Below are positions 17,319-63,394 of a stretch of DNA of 64,000 bases, in pieces. The position numbers and the translations under genes were made by a program. The stretch lies in assembly GCA_945916235.1 (NCBI GenBank), contig CAMEGQ010000001.1:23496-87495 (forward strand), read 5' to 3'. Position 1 is the stretch's first letter, and every line of letters begins with the position of its first letter. This stretch comes from an uncultured Porphyromonadaceae bacterium (lineage in GTDB: Bacteria; Bacteroidota; Bacteroidia; Bacteroidales; Muribaculaceae). A model generated the notes under the pieces. It did no database searches. It worked only from the letters and a program-made list of their open reading frames with translations, and had not been told where the DNA came from.

Positions 17319-17837
17319 ATGGCAAATAAGGCAGCAAACATAGATTTCGGTCAATCCATCAATCGCATGAACCGTATGACCAGCGAGAGACCGCGCACAG
17401 ATCAATCCCAAGAGAGTGGGGGAGAGGTTCGTAACGAAGAACGACCCACTGAATCACAACGTCCTTTGGTTATAACGCCGGAGGCTGGGAAATGTCTTGT
17501 CGCATCGACTGTGGCATCTCAAGACCCAACCACGGAAGATGAACAATACCGAGTATCACCAACCTTAATCGACACAGACCTGATACTCCAACCGCGCCGA
17601 GTTCCGGGCCGTAAGAAGCGGGAGAATAACATTCGCACCAACCCAAAGACCATCTTCTTTGACGATGACACAGATTACGCCCTATCCACCATCAAGCTCA
17701 ACAACAGCATCGACAAGAAAGACCTTGTACTGGCGGCGACCCGCCTCTTTTTAGAAAAATTTTACCAATCAGATTTAGGCCGTTTGTCGGAGGATGGAGT
17801 AGAAGCCATCTTCCAGCAGATCAGCGGCCATAAATAG
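17319..17837 (+). CDS. Probable ParA partner (centromere-binding protein)
   Basis: This 172-aa protein follows parA and is the natural partner by position. The first ~100 residues are polar and disordered-looking with many Ser, Thr, Pro and Gln. The last ~65 residues have a folded pattern (DYALSTIKLNNSIDKKDLVLAATRLFLEKFY), a strand followed by two helices that would fit a ribbon-helix-helix. A disordered arm plus RHH is the layout of ParG/Omega-like partners, which use the arm to stimulate ParA. No ParB (Spo0J) motif is seen. Assignment rests on context and fold guess. Confidence 0.5.
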   Translation: MANKAANIDFGQSINRMNRMTSERPRTDQSQESGGEVRNEERPTESQRPLVITPEAGKCLVASTVASQDPTTEDEQYRVSPTLIDTDLILQPRRVPGRKKRENNIRTNPKTIFFDDDTDYALSTIKLNNSIDKKDLVLAATRLFLEKFYQSDLGRLSEDGVEAIFQQISGHK

Positions 17838-17850: not shown

Positions 17851-17960
17851 GAGGGTTGCGCAACACTCACGCGAGGGTAGCGCAACCCTCAGCCGAAAGG
17901 TGCGGCATCTATCTCGCGAGGGTAGCGCAACCCTCAGCCCAGAGATGCGCAACCCTCAGC
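17851..17960. repeat. Cluster of GAGGGTTGCGCAACCCTC palindromes (copy A)
   Basis: Palindromic units start at 17851, 17873 and 17918, with a half unit near 17944 (GATGCGCAACCCTC). Spacings are 22 and 45 bp. Copy B (63288-63394) has the same unit spacings. Each unit is built on the core TTGCGCAA. The cluster directly follows the putative centromere-binding gene. Confidence 0.75.
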
Positions 17961-33600: not shown

Positions 33601-36521
33601 CAGCCAAGTATGACCTCTATCGCTGGGATTACCTCACCTCGTCGTGGGTTGATGCAGGTGTGAACAAACTGCCTGGTGGCGGCTATGAAAAGCTGAATAT
33701 CAACGAACAGTGTGGCGGTATCGCCTCGGGTAACGATTACGACGCCATCAACCAACTCTTCATCAACTGCCGTGTGGCGGAGTTTGCTAACGGCATCGGT
33801 GACTTCATCGTGATTCGTGACGCGCTGTTCCGCCTCTGTTACGACCGCATGGTGGCCGCTAAGGATAACCGAGCCAAGAATACCTATGAGGCTATCTTTA
33901 CTACGGGAGGAAAGATACGCAGCCAGGCGGATGACTTGGACTCTATTGGTCCACAGAATAACGTGGGTAAGGACAAGGTTCCCTACTACGCCCTGGAGTG
34001 GATGAAGGATGCCGACGGAACCAGCTATTGGAACGCCTATGATAACGCTTACTACCGATTGTTGGAGCTGGCCTTCCCCAACGAGCTGCGCAGCATGATG
34101 CACGAGCTGCTTACAGCGATGGCGACGCTTGGCGGCACACCGATGGGGTGTATGAAGAAGTACTTCTTCGACACCGTGACGGAGGAGTTTCCAGCCGTGT
34201 CGTACAACGAGACCGCCCGCATCTGGTATGAAGACGCAGACGTGGCGATGAACCGAGGCGAGTACCAGTGTAACACCGCCCCACTAACCCAATCGCTTGG
34301 CGACCAGCTCAACTCAGAGCGCGAGTGGTACAAGAAGCGCCTGGTCTTCCTCTCCTCCTACGCCAGCTATGGCGAATTTGACCGGGGTGAGGTGAGTGGT
34401 GCCCTCTCGTTCCGCTCGGTGACCAACCGAGATGGAAGCAATCCAACCTACTCGTTTACGCTTACCCCGCATCAGTGGCTCTTCCCGGCGATTGGCGCTG
34501 GCGACAGTGTGCTTTACGGCGCTGGGAATGATGCGCCTGTGATGGTGAAGGCTGGCGAGACGATTACACTGCATGGCATCTCAGCGGATGGTAACACCAA
34601 CATCCGCATCCTGGGCATCAACTACTACCGCAGCATCGGTGAGTTCGGTGACAAGGCGTTGGCAGACACCTTCCAATTATCGGGTGAGCGGTTGACAGAG
34701 TTCTCTGCCAACGTGTCTGGTGGTAACGAGTTCCGCCCAGCCTCCATGCGCGTGACAGCGCCCAACCTACGGCATATCGATGTGACGGGTGTAAGCAGCC
34801 TGGGCGGACGGCTGGATTTATCCAACCAGACCCGATTGGTCAGCGTTAAGGCCAAGGGTACGGCGCTGACCGAGGTAGTGATGCCGAGCTGCGTGACGCT
34901 GAATACCGCCCACCTGCCAGCCGGATTGACCAAGCTGGAGCTGACAGGGCAACCCTCGCTGACGGATTTATCGCTCGATAGCACGGTGAATCTGTCGATT
35001 GTACGGTTGGCTGGATTTGACAGTTACCCATTGGCTCGATCACTGTATAACAACTATGTCAGCGGCAAAGGCAACCTGCAAATATTCAGCGCAAAGGGTG
35101 TGGATTGGAAGGATATTCCAGCGGCTATGATGAAGTATTACACCGAGTTAGCCAACTGTGAACTGACAGGACGCATCAGCGTAAGCAACCTCGATGATGT
35201 CGATTTCCGCTTGAAGACGAAGCTGTTGAAGCGCTTCGGCGCTGTGGATACGGGCGCTGACGGGTTGTTAGTGACCTACCGCGTGGTACGGTTGACTGGT
35301 GTGAAGGTGATGGGACCGGTCTATCTGCGCACAACGGGTAAGAAGAGTTACGGCGTGATGCCAACCCCTGCCACGGCTAATAACATCACCTCATGGCGAC
35401 TGACCAGCGGCAACGACCTCTACCCCATTGATAGCGATGGTGTGATGCAGGTGAACAGCATCCAAGCGGAGGGCTCAGACCCCTTCGAGGTATCACTGAC
35501 GGTTGATACCTTGAGAGACGGCACGCTGAGCGCCTCAATGAACGTGTGGCCCACCAACCACACCCCGAAGGTGGGCGACTTCTTCTATGCCGACGGCACC
35601 ACCTCGGAGGCCGACCGGGTGGAGTACGGCAAGACCAACCTGGGCATGGTGTGGTTTGTCAACCAAGACAACCCCAATGACATCCGAGGCGTGCTGAAGC
35701 AGTTCATCAACACCGGTGCACAATGGGGTATCTTCCAAGACAACTGGAGCAATCTGAAGTTGACCGACATGCCAGACTATAACGTCTTCGACGTGCCTGG
35801 CGTAGTTAACATGGGTTCGGCTGGTGTATCGCCTACATCGGATGCCTACTTGGATGCGAGCAATGAGGCTGGCGGCGGATTTGCCCGACTGGACCCTTCG
35901 ACCGCAACGGGACAAATTGGCTTAGTTACCTTGGATAGCGACATCCTGGATTACAAGGCTGGTACGGTGATGCCCATTGGTAAGGCGCAGACCTTGCGTA
36001 TCGTCAACCACTGTCACATTATCCTTCGAGACAGCAGCGTGGGTGTCGGTGTACCTGTTGCGTCGGAGAATGAAACGGAGTATGATGCCGTACTCCGCAT
36101 GAGCCAAGAGTTCGTGGCTGGCAAGGAGTCGAAGTACATTCAGTTCTTCTACCTACCGGCCATGTTGTCGTACGCTTACGAGCCTAAGTGTGAGTATGAA
36201 GGTGAGGTATTGGCCGATGAGTTCAAGGCTCACAACTGGTACCTTGGCTCAGCTGGTGAGATGGGTCGTTGCGCCTTCTTCGACTGGGCCGCCAACCAAT
36301 CAAGCAAGCCAAATGTGGTCAAGATGGCCATCTTTAAACAGGCTATCATTGACGGTCTGTTCGGACCTTGGGGAAGCCGCGGCGCCTGGTCGTCGTCGGA
36401 GTACTCGGTCACGCTCAACGCTTGGTACGCCTCGTTTCCTGGCGGGTCGGTGGCGTTCACCGGCAAGTACGGCGCTTTCGCGGTGCGCCCCTTCGTCGCA
36501 TTGAAAAATTCGGTCGGCTGA
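30645..36521 (+). CDS. Giant tail fibre with C-terminal DGR-diversified lectin domain
   Basis: This 1958-aa protein is the target of the adjacent DGR. The N-terminal ~480 residues are beta domains. Residues ~485-672 resemble a concanavalin/LamG-like jelly-roll (GQFMHIKYDPL ... RIEVYKKALSEADIRKNY). Residues ~1350-1470 contain LRR-like strands (LRHIDVTGVSSLGGRLDLSN ... LTDLSLDSTVNLSIVRLAG). The last ~150 residues are a C-type lectin of the DUF1566 type (WYLGSAGEMGRCAFF ... RGAWSSSEYS ... FAVRPFVAL). Residues 1910-1953 are the variable repeat. It should be the receptor-binding fibre. The stop codon is inside the hairpin that follows VR. Confidence 0.85.
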   Translation: MQKISLNKILDVIKEVWSKDERNGLPYSGKAVREAIQGKLAEHEEVFKAKGGAFFRTTDKQSDGAYHILLFASQADKNEWLEMKESSLVLDDISLPDESGMASTTVVALKTSSPTTIISTDNTVKLLLKFTSQIYNPLDKSATDTGEQGTLTVQTRPNSNGSWVTKGTFTVASVPVDSERYDEFDITDMTSSGAQQVRVFVKGNESSMSTNFITFAVTKTALRLSFATTWETPQSGANISLAYWITGAVDKTLRIRTTGSTGAREFSYSLGMNTYTETPFTAYLNDAGSTNLILKHGVHTFEAWLDAGSAESDHVFGQIIYLESGVTTDKPMLVINSAPETLINWTSVDFCEYAVYKQGALSCEEIPLTFYFKNYKGDVEYLKQSVSVVNGQRNTLSGGLQIDSEAEMIDVYLSCEWNGERIGSVQGYQVDNRDNFSPTKGADFVFNPKNRSNSETNRDQVINDATGEVVESVMTGIAFDATDGYTVTELGKCFRLKYGQFMHIKYDPLVAFADSSKSSATFIIDFCNHNITDEESPIVSVCSKLTNGNPLGFEMRPLDAVFMTLANQVRDDQRTGLEEGVKQQLALNIVYNVGNTGRNYVRMFVNGRHRRTFAYEDNDTFVQAVDGVIGSGGIRIGSPGAEIDIFRIEVYKKALSEADIRKNYIAAIATIEEKRKERDANDILGDNGSISYEKANKIYPCLLWRPSEKTGVSTRLCKYGDTKETVMYGDLVILDPTGRVEIGVIHDVAMSGQGTSSMSYWKWNQQWKWLAETYFLAADGTRYSGYSLIKGMPSAKKLCAKINWASSMQSHKMGATALYQDLYQLVVGDTEITATEGFENCRLAVKQMPFLFFVQEEVGGEITFAGQCTFGPGKGDKPTFGYDKSVFPDYISLEGADNGAPLVNCKVPWNEDIVEKEEEWTYNGATQWELMLGKKNQIQRYIDRTNFCYRLSPNILPFAGTYTQLQADSTLNKDRMYWVTQAESGSAKYDLYRWDYLTSSWVDAGVNKLPGGGYEKLNINEQCGGIASGNDYDAINQLFINCRVAEFANGIGDFIVIRDALFRLCYDRMVAAKDNRAKNTYEAIFTTGGKIRSQADDLDSIGPQNNVGKDKVPYYALEWMKDADGTSYWNAYDNAYYRLLELAFPNELRSMMHELLTAMATLGGTPMGCMKKYFFDTVTEEFPAVSYNETARIWYEDADVAMNRGEYQCNTAPLTQSLGDQLNSEREWYKKRLVFLSSYASYGEFDRGEVSGALSFRSVTNRDGSNPTYSFTLTPHQWLFPAIGAGDSVLYGAGNDAPVMVKAGETITLHGISADGNTNIRILGINYYRSIGEFGDKALADTFQLSGERLTEFSANVSGGNEFRPASMRVTAPNLRHIDVTGVSSLGGRLDLSNQTRLVSVKAKGTALTEVVMPSCVTLNTAHLPAGLTKLELTGQPSLTDLSLDSTVNLSIVRLAGFDSYPLARSLYNNYVSGKGNLQIFSAKGVDWKDIPAAMMKYYTELANCELTGRISVSNLDDVDFRLKTKLLKRFGAVDTGADGLLVTYRVVRLTGVKVMGPVYLRTTGKKSYGVMPTPATANNITSWRLTSGNDLYPIDSDGVMQVNSIQAEGSDPFEVSLTVDTLRDGTLSASMNVWPTNHTPKVGDFFYADGTTSEADRVEYGKTNLGMVWFVNQDNPNDIRGVLKQFINTGAQWGIFQDNWSNLKLTDMPDYNVFDVPGVVNMGSAGVSPTSDAYLDASNEAGGGFARLDPSTATGQIGLVTLDSDILDYKAGTVMPIGKAQTLRIVNHCHIILRDSSVGVGVPVASENETEYDAVLRMSQEFVAGKESKYIQFFYLPAMLSYAYEPKCEYEGEVLADEFKAHNWYLGSAGEMGRCAFFDWAANQSSKPNVVKMAIFKQAIIDGLFGPWGSRGAWSSSEYSVTLNAWYASFPGGSVAFTGKYGAFAVRPFVALKNSVG
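36373..36503 (+). repeat. DGR variable repeat (VR)
   Basis: The 131 bp align without gaps to TR at 37070-37200. I count 16 differences, all at positions where TR has A: for example AAC to GGC, TAC, GTC, CTC, TTC, ACC; GAC to GGC; TAC to TTC; GAA to GCA. No G, C or T of TR differs. This is the signature of adenine-specific mutagenic retrohoming. Confidence 0.97.
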
Positions 36522-36589: not shown

Positions 36590-36976
36590 ATGAAAGCAAG
36601 ACAATCATCCGTTTACCGAAATCAAGAGTTGCTTTTGCACACCTTGAATAGGTGCTTCGATAAAGTCCCGAATAAATTTCATCGCCAATGGCAGGCCGCT
36701 GTCTGCACGACCACCCTGATGAGCGCCATGAGACACGTCGATATGGCGCTTCGAACTAAGGATGCTCAGGCTCGGATGGAGATACTCGAAGCGATTTGCG
36801 TTGAAATGGCTGACGTGAAGGTTGTTGTAAGGGAGTTCAGCGTGAAGGATTCTCCTAAAGACCCCACGATTATCAGCTTCAATCAGTACGCTGAAATAGC
36901 GAAGCTGCTCGAAAAAATCGCTCGTGACCTTCAGAAGTGGATGATTGCCACAATGTCGCTTAATAAGGTGAAATGA
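36590..36976 (+). CDS. avd: DGR accessory variability determinant (Avd)
   Basis: The 128-aa basic helical protein fits the four-helix bundle Avd, which forms a pentameric barrel, binds RT and the TR RNA and is needed for cDNA synthesis. It lies between VR and TR, as in BPP-1. Features are a basic N-terminus (MKARQSSVYRNQELLLHTLN) and four heptad-like helices ending at DLQKWMIATMSL. It lacks extra domains. It overlaps the following frame as ATGA. Confidence 0.8.
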   Translation: MKARQSSVYRNQELLLHTLNRCFDKVPNKFHRQWQAAVCTTTLMSAMRHVDMALRTKDAQARMEILEAICVEMADVKVVVREFSVKDSPKDPTIISFNQYAEIAKLLEKIARDLQKWMIATMSLNKVK

Positions 36977-37069
36977 CCATGATTGTGACACCTTGTAGTT
37001 TATCTTTAAATGGACTCTCCACAGGTGGGTGTGACCCACTCGTTAAGAACAAGATAGCGAGAGCCATCA

Positions 37070-37200
37070 GAAGCCGCAACGCCTGGTCGTCGTCGGAGAA
37101 CTCGAACACGAACAACGCTTGGTACGCCTCGTTTCCTGGCGGGTCGGTGGCGAACAACGACAAGAACAACGCTTACGCGGTGCGCCCCTTCGTCGAATTG
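37070..37200 (+). repeat. DGR template repeat (TR)
   Basis: This 131-bp template has many AAC codons (RNAWSSSENSNTNNAWYAS, ANNDKNNAYAVRPF when read in the RT frame), the best codon for varied residues when A is randomised. It is in frame with RT, which starts 36 bp later, so TR might also be translated. Confidence 0.97.
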
Positions 37201-37236
37201 GAGGATGACTACTTAGCCTCATGGATTGAGGCGTTC

Positions 37237-38412
37237 ATGGATTGTGCTAAACGTAAAAAGAACTCCAAGGCGTTCGATGACTATCGACCGCTGTGTGAGG
37301 AAGACATTGTCCGGCTGGCAACGGCGTGTTATACACGCACCTACCAGCCTCTGCCATCCATACGCTTCGGCGTCAAATACCCTCGTCCAAGGGAGGTGTT
37401 CGCTGCACAGTTCCGTGACCGCATCGTGCATCACTGGATTTACCTGCGTGTGGTTGAACTGATTGAAACCAGATACCAACAGATGGGTGATGTATCTATG
37501 AACTGTCGCAAGGGGTTCGGACCGCAGTTGGCGGTCAAGACATTGGCCGGTTTCATCGAGGAGGTCAGTGAGGGCTACACCAGGGAGACATGGATAGGTA
37601 AGTTCGACCTGAAGGCTTGCTTCATGTCGGTGGATGTCAAGCTGTTGATAAGCCTAATCGAGAGCGAGCTGTTGGCCGACTACCAGGGCGATGACAAGGC
37701 GTTGCTGGTGTGGCTGATTGGCGTGACGCTGAGGAACAGACCGCAAGAGGGTGCTATCACCCGTGGCGACCCGATGCTGTTGGAGGCTATTCCATCGAAC
37801 AAGATTCTGCGAGGCGAGAACGGTGTGCCAATCGGTAACCTGCCGAGCCAAATCTTTGTGAACTACTTGCTAACCTATCTGGATGAGTTTATCCTTGATT
37901 ACCTGTCGGAACACGAGCCACAGGCGCACTATCTGCGCTTCGCTGATGATTTTGTTGTGGTCTGTCGAGATAAGGAGACGGTCAAGGCGGTGCGTAGGCT
38001 GGCCGCTGAGTTCCTGCGTGAGCGGTTGAAGCTGACGCTACATCCCGACAAGGTCTATATCCAAGAGGCAAGGCACGGGGTGCGGTTCCTTGGGTCGGTG
38101 ATTAGACCGGGAAGAGTATATGCCGATGAAGCGGCAGTGCGTGCGCTGGGTCGGTCGTTGGAGCGGCTGGAGCGGGCTTGTCAGAGAGGGTGTTCTACGG
38201 ATGAGTTGGAGCGGAGGGTAAGCAGTGTCAACTCCTATTTGGGGATGATGAGCCACGCCAAGAGCTACGCCATCCGGCGGAGGATGCTGAGTGAGAAGGT
38301 TCACTTGTGGCGTTATTGCTATGTTGTCAAAAAATTCTTAATCCTTAAAATCAAAAAGTGTTATGTTAGAGATTACAGAGATGAGCTGGAGCAGAAGGTT
38401 ACTCCAGCGTGA
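37237..38412 (+). CDS. DGR reverse transcriptase
   Basis: The ORF track starts at 36973 and runs through TR; the first Met past TR is at 37237 (MDCAKRKKNSKAF), giving 391 aa, normal for a DGR RT. Motifs: FDLKACFMSV (RT2, with the first catalytic Asp), NGVPIGNLPSQIF (the DGR type GxxxSQ motif instead of the retroviral QGxxxSP), LRFADDFVVV (the FADD catalytic pair), and LHPDKVYIQ followed by GVRFLG. All catalytic residues are present. RT copies TR RNA with errors at A and the cDNA replaces VR. Confidence 0.95.
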   Translation: MDCAKRKKNSKAFDDYRPLCEEDIVRLATACYTRTYQPLPSIRFGVKYPRPREVFAAQFRDRIVHHWIYLRVVELIETRYQQMGDVSMNCRKGFGPQLAVKTLAGFIEEVSEGYTRETWIGKFDLKACFMSVDVKLLISLIESELLADYQGDDKALLVWLIGVTLRNRPQEGAITRGDPMLLEAIPSNKILRGENGVPIGNLPSQIFVNYLLTYLDEFILDYLSEHEPQAHYLRFADDFVVVCRDKETVKAVRRLAAEFLRERLKLTLHPDKVYIQEARHGVRFLGSVIRPGRVYADEAAVRALGRSLERLERACQRGCSTDELERRVSSVNSYLGMMSHAKSYAIRRRMLSEKVHLWRYCYVVKKFLILKIKKCYVRDYRDELEQKVTPA

Positions 38413-43166: not shown

Positions 43167-43574
43167 ATGAAAAACAACAGGGAACGATTGACCAAGAGTC
43201 AAGTGGAAGAAGTGCTGAGAAGCTACTTCGGTTGCTCGCTGCGCGAGATGTGCGTCACGGTATCTATCCTCTGCATCCACGCGCACGTAGTGTACAACGA
43301 CTTCAAGACGCAGCTCACCGCCCAACGCGAGCTGATGGATAGGCTGCCAGGAGTCTATCTCTATCTGGAGCGTGGCTACACCGATGGCGCCACTCTCGAT
43401 GCCCTCTATGGTGCCGACCTCGACGAGCAGGAAATCTACATCAAGGACCAAAGCGGCTCACTCATCCGCACCACCATCCACGAATACCTCTTCGAGTACC
43501 TCGATAACAAAGAGATGTGTCAAACGTCCCACCAAACTAATAGTTCGCAAATCTTAAATCAATTTGCTTGTTAG
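43167..43574 (+). CDS. Unknown ~125-aa family protein, paralog 2 of 3, altered C-terminus
   Basis: The first ~115 residues match paralogs 1 and 3: VLRSYFGCSL, SILCIHAHVVYNDFKT, ERGYTDGATLDALYGADLDE, IHEYLFEYLDNKE. After that the sequence departs (MCQTSHQTNSSQILNQFAC), exactly where a 22-bp repeat (43528-43549, second copy at 43595-43616) begins. The natural C-terminus, and the 35-aa peptide that follows the other paralogs, are missing, so the 3' end was probably replaced by a rearrangement. Good Shine-Dalgarno (TAAGGAGATAATAAC). Confidence 0.7.
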   Translation: MKNNRERLTKSQVEEVLRSYFGCSLREMCVTVSILCIHAHVVYNDFKTQLTAQRELMDRLPGVYLYLERGYTDGATLDALYGADLDEQEIYIKDQSGSLIRTTIHEYLFEYLDNKEMCQTSHQTNSSQILNQFAC

Positions 43575-43616
43575 GAAATGTGTGTCCTCACCGACCCACC
43601 AAACTAATAATTCGCA
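43528..43616 (+). repeat. 22-bp direct repeat pair at a junction
   Basis: CCCACCAAACTAATAgTTCGCA at 43528 and CCCACCAAACTAATAaTTCGCA at 43595, 67 bp apart. The first copy is where paralog 2 loses homology to its relatives. Likely a recombination scar or insertion footprint. Confidence 0.6.
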
Positions 43617-43661
43617 TGGCTGCCTCCGAGACAAAAACAAAAGAGGCGGTCATGCTTTTTT
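43614..43661 (+). terminator. Intrinsic terminator upstream of the origin
   Basis: GCATGGCTGCCTC pairs with GAGGCGGTCATGC (two G-T pairs), followed by TTTTTTC. It isolates the origin region from transcription. Confidence 0.85.
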
Positions 43662-43718
43662 CTTGCGCCGGCTTTCGTAGTCTTTCATCGGCTTTGTTTT
43701 CAAGGTTTTGCTCACCTT

Positions 43719-43744
43719 ATTAATGACGTGAGCACAGTGTAATG
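43719..43744. promoter_or_regulatory. Inverted repeat in the origin region
   Basis: TGCTCAC and GTGAGCA are separated by 12 bp (CTTATTAATGAC). It may be a regulator site of the replicon. I see nothing else in 43662-43908 except AT-rich DNA. Confidence 0.5.
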
Positions 43745-43908
43745 CTGTCATATTCAGAACCATATACCAACATAAAAAATATAATAAGCGAGAGCTCTCC
43801 CTATTTAAGTATTTATTTAGAAAGTATTAAAGATAAATATCAGACCGCAAGAACACGATGTATTTGTTTGACTATCATAGAGATACAATCGTTAATTTAT
43901 GGTTAATT

Positions 43909-43991
43909 ATCAGTTTCATGGGATGCAATTATCAGTTTCATGGGATGGAAGTATCAGTTTCATGGGACGTTTATATTAGTTTCGTGGGACG
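43909..43991 (+). other. Probable replication origin: four iterons at 22-bp spacing
   Basis: ATCAGTTTCATGGGATG and variants start at 43909, 43931, 43953 and 43975, exactly two helical turns apart. The third ends GGGACG and the fourth is ATTAGTTTCGTGGGACG. CTTGGGACG near 44025 is a partial copy. Iterons before a Rep_3-type gene are the standard layout of iteron plasmids. Confidence 0.85.
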
Positions 43992-44103
43992 CGGTTCGGT
44001 CGTTTCACGTTTTATCTATTAGGCGCTTGGGACGCCAATCGTTGCTAAATGCTAAATATGATTAATTATTAGTCCAAAAAGAGCGTACTAATAATAATAA
44101 CAT

Positions 44104-44111
44104 TACCTTTG
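44104..44111 (+). promoter_or_regulatory. -7 element of the rep promoter
   Basis: TACCTTTG lies 29 nt before the rep ATG. There is no clear -33. A partial iteron upstream may serve autoregulation. Confidence 0.5.
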
Positions 44112-44139
44112 TATCGCTAACTAATACATTCCTAATCAA

Positions 44140-45306
44140 ATGGCAGACAAAAGTATTGAAAAATTCAATCCTAAGACCATTGTAAAGGTCTCCTCGCAGC
44201 TATACGAAATGGATAAGCGCCGTATCGACCTCTCCATCTATGGTTACCGGTTACTCTATGCCATCTCTTCCGGCCTGAGCGAGCGTGATATGTTCTGTGA
44301 GTACCGCTTCAGTAAGAGTGCGCTGTTCAAGTACCTGAATATAGATAACACCAACCAGCGCCACGACATCCTCCAGCAGACCCTCACCGAGGTGCAGAGC
44401 AAGGGGATAAGCATTGTAACGACCAACCGGGGCAAGCGAACCTGGGAAAACATCTCGCTCATCACCTACAGCAAGCACTCCGAGGATGGAGACAACGTGA
44501 TTATCCACATCAACGACAAGGCAATGGATATTCTCTTCAACATCAAGCAGTATGTGCCCATCATGCCCAAGCACTACCTACCGCTTAACACCACCTATCA
44601 GAACTGGTTCTACCCATTCCTGAAGAAGTCGCTGAAGCTGGGCACATGGACTATGACCATCGACGACATCATCACAGGGCTTAACCTCGACGGGAGCGCC
44701 ACACCGAGCGGCATGAAGAAAGCGGAAAATACCTGCTCCAGCTACGACCGCAAGAAGTGCGCCTCTTATATAGGTAATGTGCTACGCTTCGTGGTGGGCA
44801 TCGAGCCGAGCCAAGCCTATAAAGAGGAGATTCGTGCGGCCAAGGCCGAGAAGCGCAAGCCTCGACCCGTCCCATGGGACTATTACAAGAACCCCCGGAG
44901 CGGCAATCCTACCGGCACGCTCTACACCATCAGCCACTACACCGACATCGAAGTGAAAGCCTATGCCGAGAAGGAGGGGAGGAGCTATGCGCGTGTGGTA
45001 TTCCTGGTCAGGCAGAAGGTGAGCGAGATGGATAAGCGTCAGCTTGCGGAGCTCGACAAGAACATCAAGAAGCAGGCTGAAGAGGATATGGGTGCGCGTC
45101 AGGATTTGGCCAACCGTGCAGGTTCTGAATCCATATCCTACGCGCAGATTGTAGAGCCCGCTTGCGAGGTTCCCGTCATGGAGGCCGCATTTCATGATGA
45201 ACAAGAGTTGCGAGACAGCGCCCGTGAGGTAGGCATGACCTTCGAGGAGTATGTCGAGATGGGCCGCTTCGCCAAGCATCCCAACGGCAAATGGTACCGC
45301 AGATAA
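44140..45306 (+). CDS. rep: Replication initiator (Rep_3/RepB-like)
   Basis: The 388-aa protein has the layout of Rep_3 initiators: two winged-helix domains. Recognisable parts are MDKRRIDLSIYGYRLLYAIS (domain 1 start), FSKSALFKYLNI, NYT-like QRHDILQQTLTEVQ, then LNTTYQNWFYPFLKKSLKLG leading to a second domain with TWTMTIDDIITGLNL. The C-terminal ~130 residues are charged. It binds iterons to open the origin. With parA this gives the phage a plasmid replicon, in place of the usual integrase. Confidence 0.8.
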   Translation: MADKSIEKFNPKTIVKVSSQLYEMDKRRIDLSIYGYRLLYAISSGLSERDMFCEYRFSKSALFKYLNIDNTNQRHDILQQTLTEVQSKGISIVTTNRGKRTWENISLITYSKHSEDGDNVIIHINDKAMDILFNIKQYVPIMPKHYLPLNTTYQNWFYPFLKKSLKLGTWTMTIDDIITGLNLDGSATPSGMKKAENTCSSYDRKKCASYIGNVLRFVVGIEPSQAYKEEIRAAKAEKRKPRPVPWDYYKNPRSGNPTGTLYTISHYTDIEVKAYAEKEGRSYARVVFLVRQKVSEMDKRQLAELDKNIKKQAEEDMGARQDLANRAGSESISYAQIVEPACEVPVMEAAFHDEQELRDSAREVGMTFEEYVEMGRFAKHPNGKWYRR

Positions 45307-45320
45307 TCCCATCAAACTAA

Positions 45321-45460
45321 TACTTATCACTGATTACAATAACCAATCATTGATTACAAAAACTAATCACTGATTACAAAAACTAATCACTGATTACAAA
45401 AACTAATCATTGATTACAAAAACTAATCATTGATTACAAAAACTAATCACTCATAACTAA
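45321..45460. repeat. Seven tandem 20-bp repeats
   Basis: AACTAATCACTGATTACAAA repeats with an exact 20-bp period from 45361 to 45440, with diverged units on each side. Each unit holds the palindrome AATCAcTGATT. It lies just after rep and before the fimbrillin-like gene. It could be a second Rep or partition site, or a leader array. Confidence 0.8.
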
Positions 45461-45489
45461 TTACTAATCACTAAAAACAATCTCTCATT

Positions 45490-46386
45490 ATGAAAAAGTT
45501 TTTCTCCCTTTTCATGGCGCTGTGCGTCATGGCCTCTCTGTTTCTGTTATCCGCTTGTGTCAATTCGGTAGAGGATGGCGGCAAGGAGGATCAGACACTC
45601 TGTAAGCTCTCTGTCTCCGTGGGTCAGCTGGTATCAACCCATCCTATCACAGGCGAATCAAATATCGCTACCCGTGCGGCGATGACTCTATCCGACCATG
45701 CAAAGGCGCTCACCCTCTTTGCCGTGGCGGAGGATGGATCGGTCGCTGCGAGCGTAACGCAAGCATCCACGGAACCGGGTTACGGCAGTATCACCATGGA
45801 ACTTCCTCACGGCAGCTATACGCTGGTCGGTGTGGCTCACAATGGCGCTCAAGCCTCCTATGCCGATGGCATCATCGCCTTCGAAGACGGCAAGGTGACA
45901 GACACCTTCATCGGTACGAAGGCAGTGGCGCTCTCGTATAATGCTTCGCCTATAAGCACCACCATCACACTGCAACGGCGGGTGGCGAAGCTAACCATCG
46001 ACATGAAGGACGCCCTTCCGCCTTCCGTCAACGAGGCCAAGGTGTCAATAAGCACCTACTCCCCAAAGTTCGACCTCTCCGCCAACGCAGGCACGGCAGC
46101 CGAACCGCTGGAGCGCAGCTTCAACCTGACCAGTTACAGAGGCCAAACCGACATCAGCATCTCCATCTACACCTTCCTGCCCACGGCTACCACAACAACC
46201 TCGCTCACCTACACCGTGACCGATACATCAGATGCTACCCTATACACCCACACCTTCCCATCGCTCAACCTCGCCGAGTGCACCCAAACCAAGGTGTTCG
46301 GCCATTTCTTCACCTCCAGTGATGTCTGGACTATCGAGTTAATGGGGGATTGGAAGACGTCGATTGACTATAACATTAACAATTAA
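45490..46386 (+). CDS. Fimbrillin-like lipoprotein (FimB/Mfa2-like)
   Basis: A 298-aa protein with a lipoprotein signal peptide: KKFFSLFMALCVMASLFLLSAC, with Cys in the lipobox LSAC. The mature part has two beta-sandwich domains typical of Mfa2/FimB-type fimbrial anchors and fimbrillins: HAKALTLFAVAEDGS, GSYTLVGVAHNGAQA, ISTTITLQRRVAKLTIDMKD (the 'l.R.vAkl.i.' strand is very characteristic). In Bacteroidales these are outer-membrane fimbrial proteins. As a phage-borne gene it is a likely lysogenic conversion gene that changes the host surface. Confidence 0.7.
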   Translation: MKKFFSLFMALCVMASLFLLSACVNSVEDGGKEDQTLCKLSVSVGQLVSTHPITGESNIATRAAMTLSDHAKALTLFAVAEDGSVAASVTQASTEPGYGSITMELPHGSYTLVGVAHNGAQASYADGIIAFEDGKVTDTFIGTKAVALSYNASPISTTITLQRRVAKLTIDMKDALPPSVNEAKVSISTYSPKFDLSANAGTAAEPLERSFNLTSYRGQTDISISIYTFLPTATTTTSLTYTVTDTSDATLYTHTFPSLNLAECTQTKVFGHFFTSSDVWTIELMGDWKTSIDYNINN

Positions 46387-47907: not shown

Positions 47908-50900
47908 GTGGCAGCGAACAGAGTAACATTGACCCTTACGCTTGACGCACAGCAGGCGCAGAATGAGATTGAGCGGCTTAAAGAACTATCCGACCAATTA
48001 ACGGGTAGCTTGCAGAATGTGCAGGAGCGCATGGCCGACAGGACCAAGTGGCTTCCGGGTGAAAATGAAAAAACCCTCAGCAAGGAGGCGAGCACCTTGA
48101 AGAAGCAGATTAAAGAGCTTAACAAACAGATCACTGATGGCGAGTCTATGATCGACGGTGTGGAAGAACGGCTCCAGAAGATGGCGGATTACAGCTACTA
48201 CAACCTCAAGAAGCTGGAGAATGTGTTGAAGAACTCACTGAAAAATGCGCAGTTCGACACCGACGCCTACCGCCAGGCAGCTGATCGGCTTCAGAAGGTT
48301 AACGATGAGATGGCCAAGCGCCGCATGGACATCAACAACACCGAGACCATTGCGAGCTCCAAGAAGGTACTGGAGACCCCAGGAAACTACTCCACCTCAG
48401 AGATTAACAACGCCATCAAGACCCTCAAGGATTTACAAGCCATCACCAAGCACAATGAGGATGAGTGGGGCCGACTTGAGGAGTCCATACAGCGAGGTAA
48501 AGATCAGTTGAAGGCGTGGACGGATGCTACTAAGGAAGCTAAGGCAAACGACCTACAAGCCAACCTAACCAACCTCTCAACCGACGCCCTTTCCGAGCAG
48601 AAGAAGTATTGGCAGGCGATGATTGATGGTGCGGAGCAGAGCAACCCCAAGATGCAGCAGTACATCGCCAACCTTCAACAGGTCAATGCAGAGGAGGAGC
48701 GACGCGCAAAAAACAGCGCACAGGACATTATATCCCGTGTCAACAGCGGATGGGATGACACCATCAAGGCCACCACAGAGGCTGTTAATCAACTCAAGGA
48801 GTATCGCCAAACCCTAAATACTGCTGACACAGCCGGACTGAAACAGGTGGATGACGCTATCGACATCCTCAATGGCAAGATAGCTCAGAGCGTGGAGGGA
48901 TATATGTCGCTTCAGGATGCGCTCAACAACTCCAGCGAGAGCGCTATGCAGAACTTCAATGGAACCATCGAGGAGCTGGAGAAACTGAAGAAGGCCCTCG
49001 AAACATTGCGCAAGACGAAGGTTGATGTGGGTGACGAGAAAGGCTTGAAGAATATAGATGACAGCTTGGCGCGTGTCAACACCAAGATTACGGAGGCTAC
49101 GGGTAACATCCGCGATTTTGACAAGTTTACTTCTAACCTCAGCAGCAAGAGTTTGGCCGAGCTGGAGGCCGCAGCCAATCAGCTGAGTGAGCAGCTGAAG
49201 CATACCGCAGCCAACTCCGAAGAGTTTGTGTCCCTCAGTGCCGACTTGCGCAACGTGAACGAGCGCATTCAGGAAATCAACGGCTCTTTCCGCACGCAGG
49301 AGAATGTCATTTCGCGCACAGCTAAGGAAATGGCCTCCTATATTGCTGCATTTCTAACCATCGACAAGGCAATCTCACTAACCGAGCAGGCCATCCAAGC
49401 CAACATCGAGCTCTCCGACTCGTTTGCCGACATTCGAAAAACCACAGGCTTGGCCGAGGAGAATGTTCGCCGACTGAGCGACCGCATCAACGACATCGAC
49501 ACCCGTACATCCATGGAAGAGCTGCATGAGCTGGCCGTCGTAGCCGGACAGATCGGTTTGCGCAGCAGTAACGACATCTTAGGCTTTGTTAAGGCAAGTA
49601 ACCAGATCAACGTAGCCCTTAACGAACTGGGTGCCGAAGGTACCTCTACGCTTATGAAGCTGGCTCAGCTGACGGGTGATGTTAACATGGGTGTGGAGAA
49701 GGCGCTGTTAAGCATCGGTTCAGCCATCAACGAATTGTCGGCCAACAGTGCAGCCACCGCAGAGCCTATTGTCGATATGATGTCACGCTTGGGCGGTATC
49801 GCCCAGCAGTCGGGCATCACCACGGCTGAGATGGCCGCGATGGGCGCCACGTTTAACGCCATGAATCAGTCTATCGAGGTTGCCGGAACCTCGATGAACA
49901 AATTCATCTCTACACTTATGAGTGATACCGAAGGGGTGGCCTATGCGCTTAACATGGATGCACGTGTGCTGAAGCAGCTTATCCAGACAGGACAGACTAC
50001 TGAGGCGATTCTTCAGGTATTCGAGCGGATGAAGTCTATCTCCAAGGAGAGCAGCGACGGAATGGCCAGTCTCTACGGCGTGATGGGCGACCTTGGTTCA
50101 GAGGGTGCCCGTATGTCGCAAACCATCTCAGCAGCAGCCAACAGTGTAGAGTTTATGCGTGCGCAAGTCGAGCTGTCGCGCGATGCCTTCGTAGAGGCAA
50201 CCAGCGTGACCAACGAGTACAACGTGAAGAATGAGAACGCTATGGCCTTTATGAAGCGAACCGGTAACTTGATTAAAGAGGTCTTCGTCAACGGCAGTGC
50301 TGAGAGCGGTATCACTCGCCTCATGCGCACGCTGCATAGCTTTGTCAAGAGCCTCGTAGAGGGTGGCGAGAAAGCCACATGGTTTAAGTCTATTCTCGGC
50401 GCCATGGTGGTGGTGATGTTTACCGCATCCAAGGGAGTGACCAATTTATCCCGAAGTTTTAAGGCATTCTGGAGAAACGTAGAAGGGGCCACGACAGCTA
50501 CAAGGCTATTCAATGGATCGCTTAAAGCACTTAATGCTGTGGCGAAAACGATAGGTGTTTATCTCATCGCTACTGGCATCGGGATGCTCATCGGGTACAT
50601 TATTTCCCTGTTTACCAATACCAACCGCCTCACAAAGGCTATTGCCGAGAGCAACAACGAACTGGCTGTGCAGAGTAACCGCATCGCCTTCCTCAGCTCG
50701 CAGCTGGCCAAGGAGAACCTGGAAGAGAAGAAGAAACTGCAATACATCAACGAGCTGAACAAGAACTACGGCCGATACCTTGGCTTCATGCTCAAGCACA
50801 CCGACAGCGCAGAGAAGTTGCAAAAAGCTACTGCCCTTCTCAATGCCGAGCTGCGCAAGCAGTCGGCACTCACCATCGAGACCACCATCAAGGACAAGCT

Positions 50901-53900
50901 CAAGGAGAAGTATGCTGACAAGACGCAGGGGTTAATGGAAGAGGTGAGCGGCATTGCCAAACAATACAGTAAGTACGGTGAAGCGCAGTCTGCCGGACTG
51001 TCATCGGTGGTGACACGTCTTTCCGCTCAAACGGATGGGAAGGATTTCAAGACCGCACGAACGATGGTGATTGATGAACTGAAGAACCTGGAGCAGTCTG
51101 AGGTTATCAATCTGAACTACATCCAGAAGGTCCATGATTTGGTTAATAAGATGCGATTGATGAACAAGCAGTTCAACGACGAGGTGGCGGTGTACACCCG
51201 CATGTCATCCGTGCAGCTCGACGAAGCCTCCAAGCAATCCATCGAAGCCCGTAAGGAGATGCTCGACGAGTTGAAGAAAGAGTATGACCAGTTGCAAGCC
51301 ATATCCACCGAGGGGATGGACGAGGAGCAGCAGCGCGACCACTACAACCGATTGATGGAAAAGCAGGCTGAGTATGTGAAAACCTCCGAGGAGCTGATGA
51401 AGGGCTACAACGAGGAAGCCGCTAAGATAGACGCTACCAGGGCTACCGACGAACAGCGCCAATACCTCGATGACCTGAAGGTGAAGAAAGAGGCTCTGAT
51501 TGCCCAGACGCAGGCCGTCACCGCCTACTCTGACCAAATCAAGAAGAAACTCAACGTGCTCAACGACCATTGGGGGAAAGGTCCCAACCTGGCGCAATGG
51601 AGGCAGGCGCTCGACGAGATAGCCAGCGGTGCCGACCTCAGCAGCGAATCAATCGATAAGTTGGTCAATGTCTATAAGCAGATGCAGAAAGAGTCGCAGA
51701 AAATCTCCGACGTCAACGCCTATAACGAGATGTTTGGCACCAACTTCACCAGTCTGGATAAGGCGCAGCTCGACATCAAGGCGAAAGCCAAAATCATCAA
51801 GGACCGCCTCGCAGCCCTTGGCCGTGGCGTGACGGGTGATTTCCTTTGGGGCAAAGATGGCTCCGAGCGCGAAGCCAAGCGCAAGGCTAAGGAGGAGTAT
51901 CAGGCTGCGCTGGCCGCCTTTGAAGCCTACTGGAATGAGCGCGAGACGGTGCTTCGTCAGAAGTCGGCTGAACAGCTCGACACCGAAGCCGAACTCAACC
52001 GCAAGCTGGAGCGGATGAATGAGGAGAAGTGGGCCGACCAGGTACAGCTTTACATGAAGCTGCTCGATGATTTCTACCGCCAATCCACCTTCAACAGTAG
52101 CAAGTATGTGGGTCCGCTCACCAACCTCGATTACTTCAAGGACAAGGACCTCGACAAGCTGCGCGTCCAGCTCGACAAATGGGGCATTGCGATGGAGGAT
52201 GGCATGAAGAAGAAGATGACCGAGGTGGGCGTGAAGCTCCAGCAGCAGCTCCACAAGGTGCGCCAGGAGATTGAGAAACTGCTGCTTGACAACAACTTCA
52301 CCGAGCAGGTCATCAACCAGTACCTCGAAGCCATCGACCGCCTGGGGTTGCTCTATAACGTGAAAACCGAGGATGAACAGAAGCGAACCCGTGAGCAGAG
52401 CCGTCTGCGCCTGGCCGTGATGCGCCAGTTTGCCGACGAAAGCTATAACCTCGATGCAGCCGCCTTGCGCGAGCGGATGGAGCAGCAGGAAATCTTTGCC
52501 CAGTGGAGCAAGGGCCGCACGGCTGAGGAGTATGAAGCGCTGCTGCAAATGTTGCGCAAGTACCACGACGATGCCGCCGAAGCCGACCGCAAAGCTGCCG
52601 AGCGACGTAAGAAGATTTTCGACAACAGCACGCAGGGCGTAGCCCTCGAAGATGCCGGCAAGAAGCTGGAGGAGGAGAGCGGCACCGAGCAGAACAAGTG
52701 GCAACGCTTCCAGGAGCTCGACCTGGTAACGGGTGATGTGTCACGCGATGTAGAGATTGACCTATACAAGCAGAAGATAGCCCTCAGCGCCAAGTACATC
52801 GACTCCATCAAGAAGGAGATGGAGGCCGAGAAGCTGAAGGCCAAACTCGCCATCATGAACGCCGAGGCCGAGCTTAACGCCCGTATCACCATGGGTCGCG
52901 ATACCACCGATGCCGAAGCCGCCTTAGCCGCCGCCCGTCAGCAGTACGCCTCGCTGGAGCGTCAGGAGATGCTGATGACGCAGGATGCCCGTCAGCAGAT
53001 GACGGAGAACACCCAGCACCTGAACGACCTCTACATGCAGAGCGAGCAGAGCAAACTCGCTGAGATGAAGAAATACACCGATGCGGTGGTGGATTTCAGC
53101 GGGCAGATGGGCGAGGCCGCCTTTGGTGAGGTGGAAGACCGCAAGGAGGCCGCCAAGCAGCTTGTCAAAACCTTGCTCACCTACCTCAAGGACTGGGCCG
53201 CAGTCAAGCTCACCGAACTGGCCATGAAGCGGATGTTCGCCCAGCAGAGCACCGCCATCGAGGGGCAACAGGTAGCGAGCGACCTCACCATGACGGGCGC
53301 AAAGACCTCGGCTGATATTGCCGCAGGCACTGCATCGGCTACCGCTAAGGAGGCTGGCCGATTGGGTTTCGCTGGCTTGGCCGTAGGCGCATTGATCAGT
53401 GCCGCACTGGGCGCCCTGCTTGGTCTGGCTATGGGTGCGTTGAACAAGTCGAAGAGCACCGTGCAGAGCGTCAGCGGTGCCGGAGGCGGCAAGCTCGCTA
53501 CGGGCATGCTGACCTACGCCAGCGGTAACTACCCCGTACTGGGCAACGATGGCAACGTCTATAACGCCAAGTATGAAGGCAGCAACCCGCAGACCGGCAT
53601 CTACGGCGGGGGCGCCCACTTCGGCATCTTCAGCGAGAAGAAGCCCGAAGCCATCATCGACGGAGAGACCACCCATAAGCTCGTCACCGACTACCGCGGC
53701 CTCTGGAACGCCATCCTCACCATCAGTCGCCACGGCAGTCTGCCCAGCAATGGTATGCCCACCTTCGCCACAGGCAACATCGAGCAGCTGGCCGCAGCAG
53801 CCGCCCAAGCCGGACAAGCCGCCACGCTGCCCACTGCCGAGCAGCAACAGCTGACGCAAGCTACCCTGGCCGCCCTGACGCAGACCATGCAGCGCACCAA

Positions 53901-54015
53901 TGCCGTGATGGAGTACCTGGCCGCCAACGGCGTAGGCATCAACATGTACAGCGATAAGGGACTCTACAAGCAGAGCCAGAAAGCCAGCAAGTTCGGGCAG
54001 AGGGTAGGGCTGTGA
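47908..54015 (+). CDS. Tail tape measure protein, 2035 aa
   Basis: The start is GTG (47908), read MAANRVTLTL. Residues 1-460 are coiled coil. Residues ~480-760 are a TP901-type phage tail tape measure domain (LHELAVVAGQIGLRSSNDIL, MSRLGGIAQQSGITTAEMAA). Hydrophobic helices follow at ~840-900 (ATWFKSILGAMVVVMFTAS; IGVYLIATGIGMLIGYI). The rest is mostly charged coiled coil, with a glycine-rich C-terminus (SGAGGGKLATGML). At about 1.5 angstrom per residue this length predicts a tail near 300 nm, so a siphovirus with a long tail. Confidence 0.92.
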   Translation: MAANRVTLTLTLDAQQAQNEIERLKELSDQLTGSLQNVQERMADRTKWLPGENEKTLSKEASTLKKQIKELNKQITDGESMIDGVEERLQKMADYSYYNLKKLENVLKNSLKNAQFDTDAYRQAADRLQKVNDEMAKRRMDINNTETIASSKKVLETPGNYSTSEINNAIKTLKDLQAITKHNEDEWGRLEESIQRGKDQLKAWTDATKEAKANDLQANLTNLSTDALSEQKKYWQAMIDGAEQSNPKMQQYIANLQQVNAEEERRAKNSAQDIISRVNSGWDDTIKATTEAVNQLKEYRQTLNTADTAGLKQVDDAIDILNGKIAQSVEGYMSLQDALNNSSESAMQNFNGTIEELEKLKKALETLRKTKVDVGDEKGLKNIDDSLARVNTKITEATGNIRDFDKFTSNLSSKSLAELEAAANQLSEQLKHTAANSEEFVSLSADLRNVNERIQEINGSFRTQENVISRTAKEMASYIAAFLTIDKAISLTEQAIQANIELSDSFADIRKTTGLAEENVRRLSDRINDIDTRTSMEELHELAVVAGQIGLRSSNDILGFVKASNQINVALNELGAEGTSTLMKLAQLTGDVNMGVEKALLSIGSAINELSANSAATAEPIVDMMSRLGGIAQQSGITTAEMAAMGATFNAMNQSIEVAGTSMNKFISTLMSDTEGVAYALNMDARVLKQLIQTGQTTEAILQVFERMKSISKESSDGMASLYGVMGDLGSEGARMSQTISAAANSVEFMRAQVELSRDAFVEATSVTNEYNVKNENAMAFMKRTGNLIKEVFVNGSAESGITRLMRTLHSFVKSLVEGGEKATWFKSILGAMVVVMFTASKGVTNLSRSFKAFWRNVEGATTATRLFNGSLKALNAVAKTIGVYLIATGIGMLIGYIISLFTNTNRLTKAIAESNNELAVQSNRIAFLSSQLAKENLEEKKKLQYINELNKNYGRYLGFMLKHTDSAEKLQKATALLNAELRKQSALTIETTIKDKLKEKYADKTQGLMEEVSGIAKQYSKYGEAQSAGLSSVVTRLSAQTDGKDFKTARTMVIDELKNLEQSEVINLNYIQKVHDLVNKMRLMNKQFNDEVAVYTRMSSVQLDEASKQSIEARKEMLDELKKEYDQLQAISTEGMDEEQQRDHYNRLMEKQAEYVKTSEELMKGYNEEAAKIDATRATDEQRQYLDDLKVKKEALIAQTQAVTAYSDQIKKKLNVLNDHWGKGPNLAQWRQALDEIASGADLSSESIDKLVNVYKQMQKESQKISDVNAYNEMFGTNFTSLDKAQLDIKAKAKIIKDRLAALGRGVTGDFLWGKDGSEREAKRKAKEEYQAALAAFEAYWNERETVLRQKSAEQLDTEAELNRKLERMNEEKWADQVQLYMKLLDDFYRQSTFNSSKYVGPLTNLDYFKDKDLDKLRVQLDKWGIAMEDGMKKKMTEVGVKLQQQLHKVRQEIEKLLLDNNFTEQVINQYLEAIDRLGLLYNVKTEDEQKRTREQSRLRLAVMRQFADESYNLDAAALRERMEQQEIFAQWSKGRTAEEYEALLQMLRKYHDDAAEADRKAAERRKKIFDNSTQGVALEDAGKKLEEESGTEQNKWQRFQELDLVTGDVSRDVEIDLYKQKIALSAKYIDSIKKEMEAEKLKAKLAIMNAEAELNARITMGRDTTDAEAALAAARQQYASLERQEMLMTQDARQQMTENTQHLNDLYMQSEQSKLAEMKKYTDAVVDFSGQMGEAAFGEVEDRKEAAKQLVKTLLTYLKDWAAVKLTELAMKRMFAQQSTAIEGQQVASDLTMTGAKTSADIAAGTASATAKEAGRLGFAGLAVGALISAALGALLGLAMGALNKSKSTVQSVSGAGGGKLATGMLTYASGNYPVLGNDGNVYNAKYEGSNPQTGIYGGGAHFGIFSEKKPEAIIDGETTHKLVTDYRGLWNAILTISRHGSLPSNGMPTFATGNIEQLAAAAAQAGQAATLPTAEQQQLTQATLAALTQTMQRTNAVMEYLAANGVGINMYSDKGLYKQSQKASKFGQRVGL

Positions 54016-60063: not shown

Positions 60064-60096
60064 ATGGATATAAAGGTACAAGTCGATAAAGTCAAC
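60064..60096 (+). pseudogene. HU-like gene remnant cut by IS605-like element 2
   Basis: ATG at 60064 opens MDIKVQVDKVN, matching the first residues of the HU-like gene at 62434 (MAIKVQVEKM). Homology stops exactly where the element's right end begins (AGTCAACTACCGC at 60090). The track ORF 60064-60300 continues only by chance into the element. No remainder is seen beyond the left end, so that part was deleted. Confidence 0.7.
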
Positions 60097-61352
60097 TACC
60101 GCTCAGATGAAGACTGTTCGGCTTGTGAGATAGTTCTCACAGACTTTTCCTGCTTCATCGGAGCATCGCTTCTTAGGTGCTTGGTAGCACGGTCGTCCAC
60201 GGGAGGCTTTTCCACAGGCTTTACTTCCCCGCGTTGCACGGGTAGGGCCATCAGGCCAAGTTCTTTGATATTAATGGCCGCATTGATGTCGCGGTCGTGA
60301 CGGGTTCCGCAATCGGGACACGTCCACCGTCTGACTGACAGCGGCATCTTAGGCATACGATAGCCGCAGTGATGGCACAGCTTGCTCGATGGGGCGAAGC
60401 GGTCTATCACGCGGAGCTCCACACCGTACCACTCGCACTTGTAGGCGAGCTTACGGTAGAACTCTCCGAGTCCGGCATCGGCTATGCTGAACGCAAGGTG
60501 ATTGTTGTGCATCATCCCATTTACATTCAGGTTTTCCACACATATACAGCTCACTTGGTTTTCGTGAGTCAGCCGATGTGTGAGTTTATGCAGGAAGTCA
60601 CTCCTGCGGTGTTTGACTTTCGAGTGAATACGGGCTACGCGCAGCTTCGCTTTCCGGTAATTTGCAGATCCTTTCTGCTTGCGGGATAGCGAACGTTGCA
60701 GACGGGCTAACCGCAATGAGGCGTTCTTTGACAATTTGGGAGAAGCAATCTTTTCGCCGGTAGATAGCGTTGCGAAATGCTCCAGTCCGGTATCTATTCC
60801 GATGGTGGTCTCACGCAGCACCTGCTTCTTGGGAAGCGGCGTGAAGCGGTCTTCTACCAGGCAGGTGGCGTAGTAACGGCCATCGCATTCTCTGGTGATG
60901 GTGACACGCTTCAGCTCACCGCAGAAACGTCGGTGGAACCTGCATCGGATGGCGTTCTTTCCACGGAACTTCATGATTTCGAGAAGGCCGTGACGGAAGT
61001 CTGCTTTACTAAACCGAGGACAGCTGAACTTCTGCAATCCGGATTTCTTCTTGAAGTTAGGCAACTTCGCGCTCTTCTTAAAGAAGTTCTGATAGGCCGT
61101 GTTCATCTGACGGATGGCATACGAAAGGCTTTCTGAGTTGACCTCGCGCAGCCACTCGTGCTCATTCTTCAGTTCACGCTGTAGTTTGTTCACCAGGTCA
61201 AACTCGCTGAGGTTCTTCTGCTCCTCTTTCCATGCACGCTGCTTGGTATCGAGTGCCCAGTTATAGACAAAACGGACACAGCCGAAGTGCTTGTCAAGCA
61301 ATACTTGCTCCTCTTCGGTGGGATAGATGCGGTATCGGTAGCCTCGTAGCAT
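60096..61352 (-). CDS. tnpB: TnpB RNA-guided nuclease of an IS605-type element (copy 2)
   Basis: This 418-aa protein is a close relative of copy 1. It starts MLRGYRYRIYPTEEEQVLLD. The RuvC residues are intact: IGIDTGLEHF, CVENLNVNGM and HDRDINAAINI. The zinc finger is CHHCGYRM...CPDCG. It is expected to be active. Flanking DNA after its right end (TTTATCGACTTGTACC on the minus strand) gives the predicted guide, which is the start of the HU-like gene. The two TnpBs differ in many residues, so they did not arise by a recent local copy. Confidence 0.92.
   Translation of the reverse strand: MLRGYRYRIYPTEEEQVLLDKHFGCVRFVYNWALDTKQRAWKEEQKNLSEFDLVNKLQRELKNEHEWLREVNSESLSYAIRQMNTAYQNFFKKSAKLPNFKKKSGLQKFSCPRFSKADFRHGLLEIMKFRGKNAIRCRFHRRFCGELKRVTITRECDGRYYATCLVEDRFTPLPKKQVLRETTIGIDTGLEHFATLSTGEKIASPKLSKNASLRLARLQRSLSRKQKGSANYRKAKLRVARIHSKVKHRRSDFLHKLTHRLTHENQVSCICVENLNVNGMMHNNHLAFSIADAGLGEFYRKLAYKCEWYGVELRVIDRFAPSSKLCHHCGYRMPKMPLSVRRWTCPDCGTRHDRDINAAINIKELGLMALPVQRGEVKPVEKPPVDDRATKHLRSDAPMKQEKSVRTISQAEQSSSER
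60099..60121 (-). repeat. Right end / omega-RNA hairpin of element 2
   Basis: Read on the minus strand: CCGAACAG-TCTTCAT-CTGAGCGG, then TAGTTGAC. The stem has two mismatches but one pair has covaried relative to element 1 (A-T to C-G), which supports a conserved structure. Confidence 0.65.
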
Positions 61353-63287: not shown

Positions 63288-63394
63288 GAGGGTTGCGCAA
63301 CACTGGGCCGAGGGTTGCGCAACCCTCGGCCGAAAGATGCGGCACCTTTCCCGTGAGGGTTGCGCAACCCTCAGCCGAAAGATGCGCAACCCTC
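63288..63394. repeat. Cluster of GAGGGTTGCGCAACCCTC palindromes (copy B)
   Basis: Units start at 63288, 63310 and 63355, with a half unit ending near 63394, at the same 22- and 45-bp offsets as copy A (17851-17960). Perfect 18-bp palindromes at 63310 and 63355. The small ORFs read across it (63223-63493) are artefacts. Confidence 0.75.

Follow-up and report, generated by a model that had tools for sequence, protein, structure and literature searches.

What would an iteron-type plasmid origin be doing among the genes of a tailed phage? The locus that raises this question lies in a window of 64,000 nucleotides (the whole stretch of DNA analysed here), which corresponds to bases 23,496–87,495 of the 87,495-base contig C1 from a 2.72-Mb assembly of 170 contigs; coordinates refer to the window unless C1 is specified. 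A sequence-only reading had described a plasmid-type origin on a tailed phage, and this description is supported by the Rep_3 match of the initiator, the layout of its plasmid relatives, and the phage genes on the contig.

Judging by gene content, C1 looks like a tailed phage of Bacteroidales. The contig gave matches for genes of packaging, head, tail, and lysis (terminase, protease, tape measure, endolysin, and holin), and a primase-like gene is also present:

20318, head maturation protease (prohead protease), phrog_53 match
38913, holin, weak match
39395, endolysin, phrog_894 match
47908–54015, tape measure, matching several tape-measure families (5.6e-37)
58105, terminase, 29.5% identity to an annotated phage terminase large subunit (94% coverage, 5e-53)
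C1, part upstream of the window, primase-like protein of 1086 aa, weak CHC2 zinc finger match

The presence of the tape measure, prohead protease, endolysin, and terminase fits the idea that the origin sits on a tailed phage. C1 showed no clear gene of the host chromosome, and neither a tyrosine integrase (15 matches elsewhere in the assembly) nor a large serine recombinase was detected on it. The two ends of C1 showed no terminal overlap. Given that C1 is unclosed, an integrase could sit in the missing sequence, and a circular form of the genome stays putative.

Several other elements were recorded on the contig. The first ~32 bases of C1 (1–32) are Illumina adapter-like sequence. Four closely similar TnpB-type genes (IS200/IS605 family) are present, the two outside the window being judged by sequence similarity:

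C1 526–1782, minus strand, TnpB-type gene
C1 11110–12360, plus strand, TnpB-type gene
9993–11243, TnpB-type gene
60096–61352, minus strand, TnpB-type gene

Three paralogous ORFs of ~125–135 aa occur at 43167–43574 (directly 5' of the origin), at C1 2377–2751, and at C1 9715–10089 (minus strand), and a fimbrillin-anchor-like (Mfa2) lipoprotein gene (45490–46386) lies between rep and the phage tail genes. A diversity-generating retroelement comprises a variable repeat (36373–36503), a template repeat (37070–37200), and a reverse transcriptase ORF (36973–38412); the variable repeat lies at the 3' end of a 1958-aa gene, and 16 of its 16 differences fall on template A positions. As the listed reverse transcriptase ORF spans the template repeat, the actual start of the gene probably lies further along. 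At 17851–17958 and 63288–63394, a palindrome (GAGGGTTGCGCAACCCTC, with variants) is arrayed at ~22-bp spacing.

The origin locus itself comprises the following features, in order along the window:

43525–43541, minus strand, inverted iteron ATTAGTTTGGTGGGACG, inside the 3' end of the ORF at 43167–43574
43592–43608, minus strand, inverted iteron ATTAGTTTGGTGGGTCG
43614–43661, plus strand, intrinsic terminator (13-bp stem and U6) that parts the upstream gene from the origin
43775–43905, AT-rich stretch adjoining the iterons (up to 77% AT vs. 49.5% in the window)
43908–43991, plus strand, four direct iterons with an 18-bp core (TATYAGTTTCRTGGGAYG) at exact 22-bp spacing
44017–44034, plus strand, weaker iteron-like site TATTAGGCGCTTGGGACG, 43 bp past the fourth iteron (matrix score 12.9; tentative)
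44065–44095, inverted repeat ATTATTAGT-N13-ACTAATAAT, two iteron 5' halves in inverted orientation, putative rep operator
44104–44111, plus strand, TACCTTTG, putative rep promoter, fitting the Bacteroidales -7 element TAnnTTTG
44140–45306, plus strand, rep, Rep_3 replication initiator of 388 aa
44868–44885, minus strand, weaker iteron-like site TAATAGTCCCATGGGACG, inside the rep coding sequence (matrix score 16.3; tentative)
45305–45321, minus strand, inverted iteron ATTAGTTTGATGGGATT, at the rep stop codon

The sequence-only reading had placed four 17-bp units at 43909, 43931, 43953, and 43975, on one helix face and about 150 bp ahead of rep. The units are present at these positions with a spacing of exactly 22/22/22 bp, and the rep ATG (44140) follows 148 bp after the last of them. 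Only the first two units are exactly ATCAGTTTCATGGGATG, whereas the third carries one change and the fourth three; the best-conserved core is TATYAGTTTCRTGGGAYG. The common helix face is approximate, 22 bp being ~2.1 turns. With respect to the inventory of the locus, the four direct copies stand, but that reading overlooked the three inverted flanking iterons and left out the operator-like inverted half-iterons, as well as a ParA module 27 kb away.

The iteron motif is highly specific to this locus. Allowing at most one mismatch, the pattern TATYAGTTTSRTGGGA has seven matches in the whole 2.72-Mb assembly, all within C1:67022–68817 (window 43527–45322), i.e., four direct and three inverted copies in ≤1.8 kb around rep, and the reversed control pattern has none in the whole assembly. 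At three mismatches or fewer, ten matches were found in the window against 1.24 expected. When a position weight matrix (PWM) built from the four direct units was scanned over C1, all seven copies outranked everything else on the contig, and nine of the ten best sites in its 87.5 kb fell in the rep locus. The best PWM score in random sequence averages 15.9, so the weaker site at 44017 is not significant alone and the one at 44868 is near chance alone. The inverted iteron at 45305 is, by analogy, possibly an incC/incA-like control site. A 20-bp tandem repeat (ACTAATCACTGATTACAAAA, 7.5 copies, 45322–45472) directly follows rep and has a near-palindromic core (TAATCA-N-TGATTA); it was rejected as a second iteron set, given that its unit is unlike the iteron and that similar short repeats precede other genes.

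The terminator, claimed to be strong by the sequence-only reading, was borne out: the hairpin at 43614–43655 has a 13-bp stem and a 16-nt loop followed by six U, with a folding energy of -22.8 kcal/mol (z = -5.5; 200 shuffles gave nothing as stable). It was missed by a simple terminator scan because of its 16-nt loop. The AT-rich stretch is a candidate duplex-unwinding region. The putative operator, formed by inverted partial iterons at the rep promoter, has perfect 9-bp arms and lies 8 bp ahead of TACCTTTG. In shuffles of the 147-bp region, a comparable inverted repeat arose in 1.9%, and an arm corresponding to half an iteron in none of 3000. TAnnTTTG is the consensus of the Bacteroidales -7 element, a motif that carries little weight by itself (26 copies on the plus strand in 64 kb). 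Rep_3 replicons usually, though not universally, have DnaA boxes close to their iterons; here, no consensus box with ≤1 mismatch was found at 43400–44140, where the box of the host itself may differ, and the one perfect box (44501, inside rep) is near chance level. An Rfam search of the origin locus returned nothing credible. GC skew, proposed as a check on the origin, has its minimum at the contig start and peaks near window position 54.5 kb; it does not turn at the iterons, which gives no support and is not decisive.

The assignment of the initiator to the Rep_3 type was confirmed. Rep matched Pfam Rep3_N (WH1) over residues 19–153 with 43.1 bits (cut-off 22.4), in agreement with the genome-level search, and it also matched phrog_4402, a phage family annotated as 'replication initiation protein'. 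The assembly as a whole contains no other Rep_3 gene. An AlphaFold model of Rep, built from two sequences, is weak (pLDDT 52; residues 134–220 mostly <50). Using this low-confidence model, Foldseek returned iteron initiators or their domains as the 23 best PDB fold matches, including RepE of F with operator or iteron DNA, RepA of pPS10, pi of R6K, RctB, and the MSBI1.176 WH1 domain; 275–291 columns were aligned to the two-domain RepE, pi, and RctB. No C-terminal domain of Rep was matched in Pfam, and the model provides support, not proof, for a second winged-helix domain that would read the iteron. The sole PDB match by sequence search, STAT2, was set aside as chance in favour of the fold search.

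Compared to known sequences, the replicon is most similar to those of Bacteroidales plasmids. The nearest relative of Rep (39% identity) is encoded by contig NODE_46 of Parabacteroides distasonis NM39_I3, which also carries relaxase-like, coupling-protein-like ATPase, and ParA genes (judged from translations), and a second (36% identity over the aligned part) by Bacteroides uniformis plasmid CP054202. The rep of CP054202 (2438–3599) consists of two overlapping frames and is thus frameshifted or mis-sequenced there. Both replicons resemble that of the phage contig in having four iterons just 5' of rep (22/23/24 bp in NODE_46; 22/22/24 bp in CP054202), a half-iteron operator before a TAnnTTTG motif, and a ParA gene on the same stretch as rep. 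The operator-like half-iterons are TATTTCCATAG...CTATGGAAATA in NODE_46 (9491–9525, ahead of TATCTTTG) and TACATAG-N12-CTATGTA in CP054202 (2367–2392, ahead of TATATTTG); the perfect operator arms start 22 bp apart in both the phage and NODE_46. The CP054202 iteron (TACATAGTAACATGGGAYG) has CATGGGAYG in common with the phage iteron. The two replicons differ from the phage in being mobilizable plasmids, with phage genes absent from the stretches read, in iteron sequences that are distinct except for the GGGA end, and in that inverted flanking copies were not recognised. A more distant Rep, on contig C32 of G655, lies beside a ParA gene and has repeats of its own; it brings the plasmid-borne or plasmid-like relatives to three. 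Beyond the repeats themselves, this shared iteron-operator-rep layout is the strongest evidence for what we predict to be an autoregulated iteron origin. With regard to the host of the phage, these relatives imply a Bacteroidales-type family only, rather than Bacteroides in particular.

A putative partition module is encoded on the same 87.5-kb contig as the Rep_3 gene:

15706–16260, AT-rich, 8-bp-periodic array ahead of parA, putative parS centromere
16349–17206, plus strand, parA-like partition ATPase gene
17319–17837, plus strand, small ORF after parA, putative centromere-binding partner

The array is the strongest 8-periodic stretch on C1 (lag-8 match 0.556 vs. 0.314 in shuffles, sd 0.019). 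The phage ParA is closest (46%) to ParA of the B. uniformis plasmids pBUN1 and pBuniCL06T06-1, where parA is likewise followed by a small homologous ORF (29% over 96 aa, 2e-9, for that of pBUN1); the phage ORF itself had no Pfam or PHROG match. An AT-rich, 8-bp-periodic stretch was found in the same place before parA in pBUN1, the plasmid in which this was checked (14420–14945; 0.481 vs. 0.294, sd 0.019). The two plasmids differ from the phage contig in their transfer or mobilization and integrase genes and in the neighbourhood of the module. We infer that the ~550-bp stretch before parA is a centromere. We know of no description of a parS laid out as a ~550-bp array of 8-bp units. The closest published arrangement that we came across is that of pSM19035, an array of 7-bp heptads (PMC9499535).

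A plasmid origin and a segregation module on one phage contig suggest that, inside its host, the phage is probably maintained in plasmid form. In our assessment, it is quite likely that the locus is a Rep_3 (theta-type, iteron) plasmid replicon, F/P1-like and autoregulated, that maintains this tailed Bacteroidales phage as a phage-plasmid. The anatomy and specificity of the locus, the plasmid homology of Rep, and the conserved layout suggest how binding, unwinding, copy control, and a plasmid state would be achieved. Rep monomers would bind the four in-phase iterons, and iteron-bound Rep would open the adjoining AT-rich DNA and then load the replication proteins of the host. Dimers of Rep on the inverted half-iterons (44065–44095) would repress rep, and the flanking inverted iterons may titrate Rep or pair with the origin and so hold down copy number in the manner of incC/incA in F and P1. 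In combination with the ParA module (15.7–17.8 kb), the replicon would maintain the phage between infections as a plasmid of low copy number, and lytic replication would probably proceed via the phage's own primase/helicase.

How this unit relates to the phage itself was addressed by its distribution. The plasmid, phage, and prokaryote genome collections were sampled, not searched exhaustively. A related terminase was found in 106 and a related primase in 50 of 397 same-family Bacteroidales genomes, the two sharing a contig in several cases. Among 30 genomes with closer terminases, 29 lack Rep_3, and the remaining one has Rep_3 on a contig other than that of the terminase. The absence of Rep_3 from these 29 genomes implies that lytic replication of such phages needs none. 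Since Rep_3 is mostly absent beside related terminases, the Rep-iteron unit seems to be an extra on top of the phage core here, and not the replication module that such phages normally use. No phage relatives of Rep were found in INPHARED down to E=5 or among the 397 same-family genomes. Searches of IMG/VR with exact peptide patterns, which reach close relatives only, returned none for Rep (from the single protein and from an alignment), and none for the terminase or ParA.

These distributions bear on the best-surviving alternative, namely that the Rep-iteron unit is a lytic origin, active after infection only and with no stable plasmid state. Its location amid late tail and lysis genes is consistent with this, as are the existence of Rep_3-like proteins in phage families (phrog_4402) and the contig ends without overlap, which leave circularity putative. 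However, a lytic origin has no need of copy-control features such as an autoregulatory operator and extra inverted iterons, a ParA module with a centromere-like array is without evident use in a purely lytic phage, and Rep_3 is missing from, or unlinked to, the related terminases, many of whose genomes have a related primase instead. We therefore consider a lytic origin improbable. Even less probable is that an integrated prophage took up a plasmid replicon, or that the contig is a cointegrate or a misassembly, with the origin silent or decaying. The four TnpB-type genes do indicate mobile-element traffic on the contig, and the assembly is fragmented, with adapter-like sequence at the contig start, but rep is intact, as are the iterons and the operator, which also agree with one another; an equally intact par module lies 27 kb away on the same contig, and C1 yielded neither an integrase nor a clear gene of the host chromosome. 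Finally, even though ACTAATA-type leader repeats that resemble the iteron 5' end are common in intergenic stretches here, the idea that the units are ordinary AT-rich intergenic repeats unrelated to Rep is hardly credible, because the full motif is confined to the rep surroundings in the whole assembly and homologous plasmids have iterons in the equivalent place, similarly spaced and with an end related to that of the phage iteron (GGGA).

The phage-plasmid reading can be placed against three known systems. In the F plasmid, oriS contains four iterons, dimers bind inverted repeats at the repE promoter, and downstream incC iterons restrain copy number (PMC13028717). The phage locus shares with F oriS-repE-incC the four iterons 5' of rep, the inverted-repeat operator at the promoter, the AT-rich stretch, further iterons outside the rep gene, and a RepE-like fold (low-confidence model). 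The iterons of F are spaced at 19 bp, compared to 22 bp in the phage, whose extra iterons are only three, inverted, and on both sides; clear DnaA boxes are lacking in the phage locus, and Rep has ~14% identity to RepE in the structural alignment. P1 likewise combines a tailed phage with an iteron plasmid origin (RepA in P1) and ParA partition (ParABS in P1). The phage lineages are unrelated, however, and the plasmid state is putative here. The ParA of the phage contig is of a different type from that of P1 and has a short partner protein, and the 8-bp-period array takes the place of a P1-type parS. Among Bacteroidales phages, the crAssphage Carjvirus communis, a phage-plasmid, is reported to persist extrachromosomally (cited in PMC11844821 and PMC12118408); it belongs to a different phage group, and the likeness lies in this reported persistence.

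Each part of the replicon belongs to a known kind, and the mechanism is not new; the kind of replicon is already known, and this member of it appears to be new. A bolder proposal, plausible but not one that we would favour at present, is that the contig represents the first-seen member of a Bacteroidales phage-plasmid lineage that built up its plasmid state from two cassettes shared with resident plasmids, i.e., a Rep_3 iteron replicon flanked on each side by inverted control iterons, and a ParA module with a ~550-bp centromere of 8-bp units. Phage-plasmids are well studied in Enterobacteria, whereas for gut Bacteroidales crAssphage is the main example in the literature consulted. A phage in which both an iteron origin and a partition module can be identified would offer a testable route to the carrier-state persistence of gut phages, and its replicon is a candidate origin for shuttle vectors in Bacteroidales.
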